Shown here in pieces: positions 1,405 to 5,604 of a stretch of DNA of 64,000 nt; the stretch's first letter is position 1; every line of letters starts with the position of its first letter. Made by a program: the position numbers and the translations under genes. This DNA comes from Hydrogenophaga taeniospiralis (GTDB lineage Bacteria; Pseudomonadota; Gammaproteobacteria; Burkholderiales; Burkholderiaceae_C): NCBI RefSeq assembly GCF_020510445.1, contig NZ_JAHBAG010000001.1:1650501-1714500 (forward strand). Direction: 5' to 3'. A model generated the notes under the pieces. The model did not search any database, had not been told where the DNA came from, and saw only the letters and a list, made by a program, of their open reading frames with translations.

Positions 1405-2289
1405 ATGACCCCCTTCCACACCACCCGCCACCAAGACGTCGAACACTGGACGCTCAACGACCCGAGCACCCGCAATGCCCTCAGCGACGCCATGGTGCTC
1501 GGCCTGTTCGAAGCCTGCCTGCGCGCCAAGCAAGACACCACCTTGCGCGGCATCGTGCTCACCGGCGCCAGCGGGGCCTTCAGCGCCGGCGGCAGCCTGG
1601 GCGGTCTCGCCAGCGCCATCGGCCAAGCCTTGCAGCCCGGTGAAGACGACCCGTTGATCGCCATGAACCGTGGCTTTGGCGACGTGCTGCACGCGCTCAC
1701 CGAACTGCCGCAGTGGCTGGTGATCGCGGTGGACGGCCCGGCCATGGGCGGGGGCTTCGGCCTGGTGTGCTGCGCCGATCTCGTGATTGCCACCGAGCGC
1801 TCGGTGTTCGCCACACCCGAGGTCACGCTGGGCCTGCCGCCGGCGCAGATCGCGCCCTTCGTCTGGCAGCGCCTGGGCGACGCGGTGGCGCGTCAGTGCC
1901 TGCTGAGTGGTGCGCGCTGGAGCGCCGCCCAGGCGCAGACGGCCGGCCTGGTGAACACCGTGGTGGCCGACGACGCGCTCGACGCCGCCGTGGCCGACGC
2001 CGTGCGGGCCTTGCGCACCGCGGCCCCGGGCGCGGTGGCCGCCACCAAACAGCTCCTGCACCGCCTGCGCGCCAAGGCGCCCGACCTGCGCACCGAAGCC
2101 GCGATCGCCTTCGCCGCCGCGCTGCGCGGTCCCGAAGCCGCGGCCGGCCTGAGCGCCTTCGCGAAGAAGCAGCCCGCGCCGTGGTTGGATGTACCCCCAC
2201 GCTCCACCGCTGCGCGGGTCGCTGCCCCCCAAGGGGGCGGATCCGGCTTGGGGCGGCCCGGCGCCGGATCGAAGGACGGCGCTGCATGA
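1405..2289 (+). CDS. enoyl-CoA hydratase/isomerase family protein with a repeat-encoded tail
   Basis: Crotonase-fold enzyme, probably hydrating an unsaturated acyl-CoA (AtuE/methylglutaconyl-CoA hydratase-like role by context). Oxyanion-hole segments are GAFSAGGSLGG (57-67) and GPAMGGGFGL (111-120). Glu139 in PEVTLGL is a candidate catalytic acid. The crotonase fold should end near residue 260 (KKQPAPW). The last ~33 residues (PPRSTAARVAAPQGGG and onward) are a translation of a GC-rich intergenic repeat that has been read through, so the tail is unlikely to be functional. The gene runs into the start of the carboxylase gene, leaving 4 bases overlapping, which suggests translational coupling. 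Confidence 0.9.
   Translation: MTPFHTTRHQDVEHWTLNDPSTRNALSDAMVLGLFEACLRAKQDTTLRGIVLTGASGAFSAGGSLGGLASAIGQALQPGEDDPLIAMNRGFGDVLHALTELPQWLVIAVDGPAMGGGFGLVCCADLVIATERSVFATPEVTLGLPPAQIAPFVWQRLGDAVARQCLLSGARWSAAQAQTAGLVNTVVADDALDAAVADAVRALRTAAPGAVAATKQLLHRLRAKAPDLRTEAAIAFAAALRGPEAAAGLSAFAKKQPAPWLDVPPRSTAARVAAPQGGGSGLGRPGAGSKDGAA
2196..2279. repeat. GC-rich repeat with CTGCCCCCCAAGGGGGCG core (family B)
   Basis: CACGCTCCACCGCTGCGCGG is followed by CGCTGCCCCCCAAGGGGGCG and CTTGGGGCGGCCCGG. This is the type of element often found between genes in this group. Here it lies inside the 3' end of the crotonase gene and codes for its extra C-terminal residues. Confidence 0.75.
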
Positions 2290-4304
2290 AAAAACTGCTG
2301 ATCGGGAACCGGGGAGAGATCGCCCGCCGCATCATCCGCAGCGCGCACGCCATGGGCATCGCCACGGTGGCCGTGTATTCCGACGCCGACCGCGACGCTC
2401 TGCACGTGCGCGAAGCGGGTAGTTCGTTCGCGCTCGGCGGCCTGGCCTCGGCCGACTCCTACCTGCGCGTGGACAAGCTGCTCGAAGCCGCGCGCGCCAC
2501 CGGCGCCGACGCCGTGCACCCGGGCTACGGCTTCCTAAGCGAAAACGCCGACTTCGCCCAGGCCGTGATCGACGCCGGTTTCACCTGGGTCGGCCCGCCG
2601 CCGGCGGCCATCCGCGCGCTGGGCAGCAAGTCGGCGGCCAAGGCGCTGGCCCACGCGCACGGCGTGCCCTGCCTGCTGGGCTACAGCGGTGACGACCAGC
2701 GCGACGAGACCTTCATCGCCGAAGCGCAGTGCATCGGCTTCCCGCTCATGGTCAAGGCCGTGGCGGGCGGCGGCGGGCGCGGCATGCGGCTGGTGCACGG
2801 GGCGGCGCAGCTGCTGCCGGCCTTGCACAGCGCGCGCTCGGAAGCCTTGTCCGGCTTCGGCAACGCCGAGCTGCTGATCGAGCGCGCCCTGCTGGCGCCG
2901 CGCCACGTGGAGGTGCAGGTGTTTGCCGATGCGCACGGCCACTGCATCCACCTGGGCGAGCGCGACTGTTCGGTGCAGCGCCGCCACCAGAAGATCATCG
3001 AAGAAGCGCCCAGCCCGGCGGTGTCGCCCGCGCTGCGCGCCGAGCTCGGCCGCTGTGCCGTGGCGCTGGCGCAGGCGGCGGGGTATGTGGGGGCGGGCAC
3101 GGTGGAGTTTCTGCTGGACGACGGGTGGGGGGAGAGCCCTCACCCCAACCCTCTCCCGCAGGCGGGAGAGGGGGCCATGCCCTTTTTCCTGATGGAGATG
3201 AACACCCGCCTGCAGGTCGAACACCCGGTCACCGAGATGATCACCGGGCTCGATCTGGTCGAGTGGCAGATCCGCGTCGCGCGCGGCGAACCGCTGCCGC
3301 TGACCCAGGAGCAGGTGCGGTTCAGCGGACACGCCATCGAGGTGCGCCTGTGCGCCGAAGACGAGCACCACACGCCGCACACCGGCCGTGTGCGCCACTT
3401 CGCCGAACCGCCGATGGCGCCCGGCCTGCGCTTCGACCACGCGCTGGAAACCGGTGCCGAAGTCACGCCGCACTACGACGCCATGCTCGGCAAGCTCATC
3501 GCCCACGCGCCCACGCGCGCCGAGGCCGTGCACCGGCTCGCCCACGCGCTGGACCACACCCGCGTGCTCGGCTTGCCCACCAACCGCGCTTTCCTCGCCG
3601 CCTGTCTGCGCCACCCGGTGTTCGGCGCGGGCGGGGCGCGCATCCCGTTCCTGGCCGAACACGGCGACGCGCTGCGCGAAGGCCTGCGGCCCGCGGCCGA
3701 TGCACAGCGGGTGGCGGCGCTGGCGCTGCTGTACGCGCAGCGGCCACCGGCCAGCGCCCTGGCCTGTCCGTTCCCGCGCGGCCTGCGGCTGGGCCTGGGC
3801 GCCGAGCTGCTGGAACTGGCCGTGCAGGAAACCGCGGGCGGCCAACTGGTGGTGACGCAGGGCGATCGGACCTGGCGCGCCAGGCTGCGGCCCGACGCGG
3901 GCGGCCTGCGCATCACACTCGACGGTGTGGGCTGGGTGGCGCACGCCGTGCCCGTGGTCGGTGCCGGCGGCGCTGCGCCGCGCTGGCAGGTGCAGCTCAG
4001 CGGCGGTGGGGCGGGCGATGCCACCCGCGCCGAACTCTGGCTCGACGACCTGAGCCACACGCCGCGCGAGCGCGCCGGCGGCGCGGGCGCCACGCGCGAG
4101 TTGCGCGCCCCTTTCAACGGCAAGCTCGTCGCCCTGCACGCGCAGGAAGGCCAGGCGGTGCTGCGCGGTGCGCCGCTGCTGGTGATCGAGTCCATGAAGC
4201 TGGAGCACACCCTGGCCGCACCGCGCGACGCGGTGATCGAAAGCCTGAACGTGGCGCCCGGCCAGCAGGTGTCTCCCGGCCAGTTGCTCGCAACATTCGA
4301 ATGA
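2286..4304 (+). CDS. biotin-dependent acyl-CoA carboxylase alpha subunit (biotin carboxylase + BCCP)
   Basis: 672 residues. It carboxylates its own biotin with ATP and bicarbonate and would pass CO2 to a carboxyltransferase beta subunit, which is not in this window. N-terminal biotin carboxylase domain: MKKLLIGNRGEIARR, glycine-rich ATP loop AGGGGRGMR (160-168), ERDCSVQRR (225-233), EMNTRLQVEHP (304-314). The biotinyl domain is at the end, with target Lys638 in IESMKLEH. Odd feature: the two metal-binding Glu (274 and 304; E. coli AccC 276 and 288) are 30 apart instead of 12, because an 18-residue insert encoded by a palindromic repeat lies between them. An upstream in-frame extension exists, but the ATG giving MKKLLIGNRG is the family start. 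Likely a methylcrotonyl-, geranyl- or propionyl-CoA type. Confidence 0.93.
   Translation: MKKLLIGNRGEIARRIIRSAHAMGIATVAVYSDADRDALHVREAGSSFALGGLASADSYLRVDKLLEAARATGADAVHPGYGFLSENADFAQAVIDAGFTWVGPPPAAIRALGSKSAAKALAHAHGVPCLLGYSGDDQRDETFIAEAQCIGFPLMVKAVAGGGGRGMRLVHGAAQLLPALHSARSEALSGFGNAELLIERALLAPRHVEVQVFADAHGHCIHLGERDCSVQRRHQKIIEEAPSPAVSPALRAELGRCAVALAQAAGYVGAGTVEFLLDDGWGESPHPNPLPQAGEGAMPFFLMEMNTRLQVEHPVTEMITGLDLVEWQIRVARGEPLPLTQEQVRFSGHAIEVRLCAEDEHHTPHTGRVRHFAEPPMAPGLRFDHALETGAEVTPHYDAMLGKLIAHAPTRAEAVHRLAHALDHTRVLGLPTNRAFLAACLRHPVFGAGGARIPFLAEHGDALREGLRPAADAQRVAALALLYAQRPPASALACPFPRGLRLGLGAELLELAVQETAGGQLVVTQGDRTWRARLRPDAGGLRITLDGVGWVAHAVPVVGAGGAAPRWQVQLSGGGAGDATRAELWLDDLSHTPRERAGGAGATRELRAPFNGKLVALHAQEGQAVLRGAPLLVIESMKLEHTLAAPRDAVIESLNVAPGQQVSPGQLLATFE
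3137..3172. repeat. palindromic repeat (family A) inside the biotin carboxylase coding region
   Basis: CCCTCACCCCAACCCTCTCCC, then GCAG, then a GGCGGGAGAGGG arm. It is the same element that occurs between genes at 23.5 and 36.6 kb. In this reading frame it encodes SPHPNPLPQAGEG, and the frame is preserved on both sides. Confidence 0.9.
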
Positions 4305-4437: not shown

Positions 4438-5604
4438 ATGAACAGTCCTCAGCCTGACAGCCTCACCCCCAAAGACCGCCGCGCGCTGCTCGACACCGTG
4501 CAACGTTTCGCCACCCAGGCCATCGCGCCGCACGTGAGCGCCTGGGACGAGGCGGGCGAGTTCCCGCGCGCGCTTTACACGCAGGCGGCCGATCTGGGCC
4601 TGCTTGGCCTGGGCTACCCCGAGCACCTGGGCGGCACGCCCGCGCCCTGGGCCGTGCGCAACGCCGTGTCGCAGGCGCTGGCGCGCCATGGCGGCAGCGG
4701 CGGCGTGATGGCCGGCCTGTTTTCACACAACATCGGTCTGCCTCCGGTGCTGGCGCACGGCACGGCGGCGCAGCAGGCACAGATCGTTCCGCCGGTGCTG
4801 CGCGGCGAGCGGATCGCGGCGCTGGGCATCACCGAGCCCGGTGGCGGCTCCGACGTGGCGAGCCTGCGCACCACCGCGCGGCTCGACGGCGGCGACTACG
4901 TGATCGATGGCGAAAAAGTGTTCATCACCTCGGGCATGCGCTGCGACTGGATCACGCTCGCCGTCCGGACAGACGCCAGGAGCAAGGGCGCCAGTGGCCT
5001 TTCCATGATCGTCGTGCCGTGCGACGCGAAAGGCCTCTCGCGCACACCGCTGCAGAAGATGGGCTGGCTCTGCTCCGACACCGCGCACCTGCGCTTCGAC
5101 GGCCTGCGGGTGCCGGCGCGCTACCGCCTGGGCGAAGAGGGCGCGGGCTTTCGCATGGTCATGGGCAACTTCAACGGCGAGCGCCTGGCGCTGGCCGCGA
5201 TGGCGCTCGGTTTTGCCGAGGCCTGCTACGACGAGGCCCTGGCCTGGGCGCGCCAGCGCCAGACCTTTGGCGCGCCGCTGATCGAGCGCCAGGTGATCCG
5301 CCACAGGCTCATGGACATGCGGATGCGCATCGCGTCCACCCTGGCCTGGGTCGATGCGGTGGGCGCCTGGGCCGACGCGGGCGACACCGGGCCGGAATGG
5401 GTGGCCCAGGTGTGTCTGCTGAAAAACCACGCCACCCAGGCGATGCAGTTCTGCGCCGACGCCGCCGTGCAGATCCTCGGCGGCATGGGTTTCATGCGCG
5501 GCACCGTGAGCGAACGCCTTTATCGCGAAGTCAAGGTCCTGATGATCGGCGGCGGCGCCGAAGAGATCATGAAAGAGCTGGCCGCGCGGCAACTCGGCCT
5601 TTGA
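4438..5604 (+). CDS. acyl-CoA dehydrogenase (second copy, distant paralogue)
   Basis: 388-residue FAD-dependent acyl-CoA dehydrogenase. Motifs: TEPGGGSD (132-139), QILGGMGFMRG (345-355), IGGGAEEIM (370-378). As in the first gene of the window, the IxEGT Glu is replaced by Gly, and a Glu-Arg pair in NGERLALA (Glu248) matches the isovaleryl-CoA-type catalytic base. The two proteins differ throughout, so they are not a recent duplication and probably act on different intermediates. GGGAG lies 7 bases before the ATG. Last gene of the rightward acyl-CoA block; a convergent terminator follows. Confidence 0.92.
   Translation: MNSPQPDSLTPKDRRALLDTVQRFATQAIAPHVSAWDEAGEFPRALYTQAADLGLLGLGYPEHLGGTPAPWAVRNAVSQALARHGGSGGVMAGLFSHNIGLPPVLAHGTAAQQAQIVPPVLRGERIAALGITEPGGGSDVASLRTTARLDGGDYVIDGEKVFITSGMRCDWITLAVRTDARSKGASGLSMIVVPCDAKGLSRTPLQKMGWLCSDTAHLRFDGLRVPARYRLGEEGAGFRMVMGNFNGERLALAAMALGFAEACYDEALAWARQRQTFGAPLIERQVIRHRLMDMRMRIASTLAWVDAVGAWADAGDTGPEWVAQVCLLKNHATQAMQFCADAAVQILGGMGFMRGTVSERLYREVKVLMIGGGAEEIMKELAARQLGL

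Follow-up and report, generated by a model that had tools for sequence, protein, structure and literature searches.

Dispersed repeats of several families lie in frame at one hairpin loop of an acyl-CoA carboxylase alpha subunit in Hydrogenophaga and its family

A palindromic repeat between the metal-ligand strands

In the genome of Hydrogenophaga taeniospiralis, a palindromic DNA repeat with copies across the genome also lies inside a carboxylase gene, between the codons of two metal-ligand residues. How did such a repeat come to be translated at this position, and does the enzyme tolerate it, suffer from it, or make use of it? The host gene occupies positions 2286-4304 on the plus strand of the window (the whole stretch of 64,000 nucleotides that was analyzed) and, judged from its open frame, Pfam domains, and structure matches, encodes the 672-residue alpha subunit of an acyl-CoA carboxylase of the MCC/GCC type (P0001), with biotin carboxylase and biotinyl domains. 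By homology, we take the stretch between these domains to be the BT region and ESMKLEH to be the biotinylation motif. The biotin carboxylase N-terminal, ATP-grasp, biotin carboxylase C-terminal, and biotinyl domains (PF00289, PF02786, PF02785, and PF00364) are all found in one chain, as in MCC and GCC alpha subunits. Names of its database relatives are mixed, some being geranyl-CoA carboxylase alpha subunit, and among the NCBIfam models listed for the protein none scores above its cut-off. The predicted fold matches MCC, PCC, and biotin carboxylases, and the top solved sequence is an MCC alpha subunit (3u9s); domain order and the conserved metal-ligand region are shared with MCC and geranyl-CoA carboxylase alpha subunits, as these appear in the sections drawn on here (PMC4673880; 3u9s).

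An enoyl-CoA hydratase gene (1405-2289), whose 3' end overlaps the start of the alpha gene, lies upstream, and an acyl-CoA dehydrogenase gene (4438-5604) lies downstream. The carboxylase beta subunit (L266) is encoded just before the window, at G000:C1:1648580-1650463.

The repeat, here called R1, is 36 nt long (CCCTCACCCCAACCCTCTCCC GCAGGC GGGAGAGGG) and spans 3137-3172 on the plus strand, a position that is read directly from the sequence. The first-pass annotation had placed it in frame here with the translation SPHPNPLPQAGEG; the reading proved correct to the base, and the 672-residue frame runs through the repeat unbroken. The flanking metal ligands, assigned by homology, are Glu274 (codon 3105-3107) and Glu304 (codon 3195-3197), both on the plus strand and both invariant in a 54-sequence alignment; their counterparts in E. 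coli AccC are presumably E276 and E288. As had been claimed, the two lie 30 residues apart, compared with 12 in 20 AccC proteins of the same genus, whose loop measures 9 aa. A MAFFT alignment of 79 orthologues plus P0039, an orthologue with an empty loop, agrees that 18 residues have been gained between them and places the whole addition at W281-M298 (3126-3179, plus strand). In an AlphaFold model built on 54 sequences (mean pLDDT 82), a coil with block pLDDT values of 51 and 55 links strands 269-277 and 300-306, on which the two glutamates reside; the model shows the insert as a low-confidence coil at the tip of a predicted β-hairpin. Unlike this alpha subunit, 3u9s has a short hairpin at the aligned position.

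The 21-letter core of R1 (including one N) matches the window four times at up to three mismatches, against a mean of 0.00 in 100 shuffles, and the genome 44 times at up to two mismatches, against none for the reversed control. These counts lie so far above the controls that a chance occurrence is excluded. An assembly error is unlikely, since the same kind of insert is carried by relatives from other sources: P0002 (97% identity), P0003 (90%), and P0004 (89%). R1 agrees with REP elements in size and shape (imperfect palindromes of 20-40 bp forming a stem-loop), being 36 nt long with a predicted stem, and in its many dispersed copies, with 44 here and a match in 41 of the 67 genus genomes searched; by eye, the ends of 43 copies share no GTAG or CGTC tag. 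It is set apart from Rickettsia palindromic elements (RPEs), which measure about 150 bp, by its length. The stem predicted for the R1 RNA has a z-score of -2.05, with 9 of 200 shuffles folding as well, and Rfam gave no match at 2900-3400.

Repeat-filled loops across orthologues

For a census of this loop, 67 Hydrogenophaga genomes and 200 genomes of the family, two of these from the genus, were searched. The alpha locus was obtained from 56 of the 67 genus genomes and from 28 other family genomes, giving 84 loci; a set of 80 named loci overlaps with these and was not added. For the remaining 11 genus genomes, the matches listed have at most 53% identity, or there is none. Outside the genus, 30 of 198 genomes matched at E <= 1e-200, and 28 of them gave a locus (G261 and G085 were left out). 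A script read the loop in 79 of the 84 loci. Omitted were L141, which is broken, L144 and L145, which lie at contig ends, and L157 and L160, whose loop motif the script did not match and which by eye have short or 18-aa-like loops without a recognizable repeat.

Recognizable repeats fill 30 of the 79 loops and belong to at least three families (R1, R2, and R3), which occur alone, combined, or in tandem. R2 is found in 18 loops, R1 in 6, R3 in 3, R1 with R2 in 2, and R2 with R3 in 1, alongside 46 empty loops of 9-16 aa and 3 loops of other kinds. The 53 loops from the genus comprise 25 empty, 13 R2, 6 R1, 3 R3, 2 R1 with R2, 1 R2 with R3, and 3 others; the 26 from elsewhere in the family comprise 21 empty and 5 R2. 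Family labels derive from peptide patterns checked on the DNA, and three of them are weak (R1 in L122, with six mismatches to the 15-base core, and R2 in L149 and L162, with three each). By these numbers the insert is not an isolated case. It had been proposed that orthologous loops of equal length lacking repeat-like DNA would speak against an insertion; the loops of undecorated orthologues are short, all within 9-16 aa, so this objection fails.

In the loops, R2 mostly reads FAAGPPQGETAPSGGSDPRSGGAWG, and it is present as two, three, four, and five tandem units in G059, G050, G056, and G005, whose loops measure 64, 103, 136, and 166 aa, respectively. R3 yields the peptide VRAEPVEA or peptides resembling LRQAQGER. 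The three loops of other kinds, each 18 aa long, may be decayed R3 copies; a database relative reads AEPVEA. Among 120 database proteins, the loop was read from 118, with 58 loops of 9-10 aa, 5 of 13 aa, and 55 longer. All lengthened loops fall at one position of the alignment (79 orthologues plus P0039), where 35 rows, two of them classed as empty, have insertions of at least 6 aa, and those of this size at five other alignment positions are not repeat-like by eye. In the G004 draft (L141, 1820-1880 of that locus), an R3-like remnant accompanies a frame-breaking deletion in which the second metal-ligand strand is lost; the deletion is either real or a misassembly.

Paralogues, picked from among the matches listed, are largely free of repeats at this hairpin. 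Among these matches, none of 20 AccC paralogues carries a repeat (all 20 loops are 9 aa long), and only one of 37 MCC-type paralogues, labeled as such from the loop motif VEFI, does so: L190 in G010 has R2 at the same hairpin, and the other 36 loops are repeat-free at 14-22 aa. Three further paralogues of 52-57% identity gave a 10-aa loop in two cases and no match in the third. An MCC/PCC-type paralogue in G049, added on account of an R1 match within it, has the repeat in another loop, so this hairpin is not the sole permissive place in the protein family.

The alpha genes are under purifying selection with the loop filled as well as empty. In nine pairs with lengthened loops, dN/dS is 0.12-0.28, and in three empty pairs 0.17-0.33, the pairs being hand-picked and overlapping, one of the nine being a pair of loops of other kinds, and the core compared taking in four codons at each loop edge. 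No stop codon occurs in the alpha orthologue rows among those listed, and the L141 draft alone is frame-broken. With dN/dS values like those of empty pairs and no stop in the rows listed, the suggestion of an impaired enzyme is not borne out, and the carboxylase probably remains active. The first-pass annotation called the repeat exapted; the evidence speaks for tolerance and persistence, and a new use is more than it shows.

The openness of the frames is partly methodological, since the loops were read from open frames, yet only one of the 84 loci (L141) is broken at the site. The R2 core in the loops has one orientation in 21 of 21 cases and one phase in 19, with L101 and L156 differing in phase. 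Its favored translation has an absolute net charge of 1, tied for the lowest of the six, and with 88% small, polar, or acidic residues the highest fraction of flexible residues; R1 as translated in the alpha subunit has a net charge of -1 and 82% such residues. This bias in R2 orientation and phase fits selection at the level of the peptide, and it also fits the lateral spread of a few insertions. For R1, 15 of 19 in-gene elements in 13 genes of this genome use three low-charge open frames, where about 11 would be expected under even use of five, so that a genome-wide frame preference is only suggestive.

Dispersal and history of the repeats

Outside the carboxylase, R1 had been described as lying only between genes. 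Instead, other genes of this genome contain at least 17 more copies in frame. Apart from the alpha copy, which is the 44th, the copies fall in 30 fetched stretches. A Pfam scan took in 30 open frames, each 200 aa or longer and with its R1 copy no closer than 60 aa to either end. It gave 17 in-frame copies in 12 genes beyond alpha, or at least 18 of 44 with alpha, a count that passes over copies close to a gene end and those in genes that lack Pfam domains. The hosts are uvrA (L235), priA (L237), uvrD (L254), polA (L255), dnaE2 (L262), metH, hsdR, the carboxylase beta subunit, an acetoacetate-CoA ligase gene, a xanthine-dehydrogenase-like gene, a B12 radical SAM gene, in which one side is below the Pfam cut-off, and a radical SAM gene that we take to be YgiQ-like. 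The names metH, polA, and YgiQ-like were assigned from Pfam domains, and a copy in a histidine kinase (L248) was left out of the count for having domain support on one side only. As a raw count, DNA replication and repair genes make up 5 of the 13 hosts including alpha. The linker segment of polA, which contains a repeat-like peptide, varies across 30 genus loci read.

In the beta subunit (L266), an in-frame pair of R1 copies lies at a variable site, which apparently links the two CT halves. Of 30 genus loci read, 18 have an R1 core there (four mismatches or fewer), 15 of them in both orientations. The true beta start is probably downstream of two R1 copies found at the beginning of that open frame. 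The R2 core has 50 copies in this genome and a match in 66 of the 67 genus genomes, and in several genomes R2 arrays with a period of mostly 81-91 bp lie at other places; in G005, minisatellite-like arrays (L386 and others) with a period of about 84 bp occupy several places. Close to the alpha gene, the hydratase frame extends 33 residues beyond its Pfam domain (2190-2286), a tail that takes in an oppositely oriented R2-like copy (core 2245-2262), and an inverted R1-like pair lies at 1230-1372, between acyl-CoA dehydrogenase and hydratase genes.

On trees built without the loop, parsimony gives 18 changes of presence or absence (79 rows, quick) or 16 (60 rows, careful), and 22 and 20 changes of repeat-family state on the 79-row and 60-row trees. 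Presence is clustered on the tree: 200 label shuffles gave a mean of 25.4 changes and a lowest value of 19, compared with the 18 observed, which argues for some inheritance of filled loops. L092 shares a nearly identical left junction with L102, L105, and L139 yet falls among R1 carriers on the tree, which means that state changes outnumber true insertions. Repeats may also be lost, as L093, whose 13-aa loop groups with the repeat-filled L136 and L137, looks like a deletion remnant. In L136, L137, and L138, different families lie side by side. Comparison of loop R2 units with genomic copies found those of the own genome no closer than those of other genomes, in small and uneven samples (5 to 28 copies).

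R1 would be a mobile element, to judge from its dispersal and scattered presence. A target-site duplication, as MITEs have, could not be made out by eye when filled and empty sites were compared in ten groups, which are too divergent for short duplications to show, and no REP-associated tyrosine transposase (RAYT) linked to R1 was found in this genome. A Y1_Tnp gene at 2053771 has ends of its own (GGGGTCAGATT...AATCTGACCCC); the nearest listed R1 is more than 100 kb away, and one R2 core lies about 1.6 kb off. Its product could act on the repeats in trans.

Competing accounts and known parallels

We consider it probable that the hairpin is permissive and retains those dispersed repeats that hold the frame and encode flexible, low-charge peptides. 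The tip of the β-hairpin between the metal-ligand strands would be a tolerant site of a catabolic, probably conditionally used carboxylase, and R1, R2, and R3 would reach it by transposition-like insertion, template slippage, or the lateral exchange of filled loops. A frameshifting insertion, or one whose peptide is sticky or strongly basic, would be lost. In-frame, low-charge peptides rich in Gly, Pro, Ala, Ser, and Glu would persist as an unstructured extension and might then grow by tandem duplication, decay, or be deleted again.

A real but lesser possibility is that the scatter mostly reflects lateral exchange, with a few insertions followed by homologous recombination that moves filled loops among related species. 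The junction shared by L092 with L102, L105, and L139 in spite of its grouping, the uniform orientation of R2, and, in a small sample, the lack of preference for own-genome copies among loop units are all consistent with such exchange. However, at least three unrelated families, two R2 phases (L101 and L156 against the other 19), and several distinct junctions require several separate insertions.

It is unlikely that the DNA itself is the target, with a mobilizing enzyme or a local sequence or structure steering repeats to the site and tolerance being secondary. That the 33 loops filled or lengthened all map to a single alignment position, that R2 has one orientation, and that different families adjoin in L136, L137, and L138 would follow from such steering, but the junctions vary by many bases with no common target duplication by eye, the same repeats sit in many unrelated genes, and no transposase linked to R1 was found. 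We regard as somewhat more doubtful still that a longer loop is adaptive, for instance by tuning substrate handling, biotin access, or holoenzyme assembly. Recurrent gain and the R1-like repeats at the variable site of the beta subunit (18 of 30 loci) point in this direction; 25 of the 53 genus orthologues, however, are empty, loop lengths range from 9 to 166 aa with unrelated sequences, and there is one apparent loss. Equally doubtful is the bolder proposal that the alpha hairpin and the beta variable site are landing pads to which several families are preferentially delivered and whose disordered modules are used; if it were true, the carboxylase would gain and swap protein segments made from non-coding repeats.

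Removal of the insert from the mature protein, by translational bypass or at the RNA level, is very improbable: the predicted RNA hairpin would suit it, but the 33 lengthened loops, read from open frames, are in frame and free of stops, which bypass would not need, and Rfam finds nothing at the site. A decaying gene or an assembly error, for which the frame-breaking deletion in the G004 draft might speak, is scarcely credible given the insert in relatives from other sources, the purifying selection, and the stop-free orthologue rows listed.

Intragenic palindromes as such are known in kind. In the portions of PMC3733652 drawn on here, REPs of the GTAG and CGTC superfamilies lie in frame in genes whose proteins are known, singly, as dimers, or in clusters that encode up to 82 aa, and the sites suggested to tolerate them are flexible linkers or loops. 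DNA repair genes are prominent hosts in that account (UvrABCD, RecBCD, Pol I, and DnaE2), with mutator effects speculated for them, and recB carries REPs at about the same site in two Xanthomonas species. R1 resembles these elements in hitting uvrA, uvrD, polA, and dnaE2, four of the kinds reported there, and differs from them in having neither a GTAG nor a CGTC tag. Whereas the same-site case in those portions concerns one gene in two species, here a single loop is filled from three families across 30 of 79 orthologues, and tandem arrays in it reach five units. RPEs, according to the part of a review used here (PMC10969869), lie in frame in unrelated metabolic genes, and their compatibility with protein folding has been proposed. 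R1 works alike, as a palindrome in frame in unrelated genes, and is not an RPE: it has 36 nt, compared with about 150 bp for RPEs, which belong to another bacterial class in that source.

Literature searches on the exact peptide and repeat strings found no report, those on Hydrogenophaga palindromic repeats gave nothing relevant among the titles listed, and recurrent filling of one loop by several repeat families was not found in the literature searched. As far as these searches reach, the refilling of one enzyme loop by several families is new. The occurrence of a tagless palindrome (no GTAG or CGTC) in several of the same DNA repair genes makes an unexplained pattern testable again. Single insertions make it hard to test whether an intragenic repeat is a tolerated accident or a source of protein change. 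The alpha loop offers a natural series of replicates in an assayable enzyme, from empty loops to one to five units and across three families, with gain and apparent loss.
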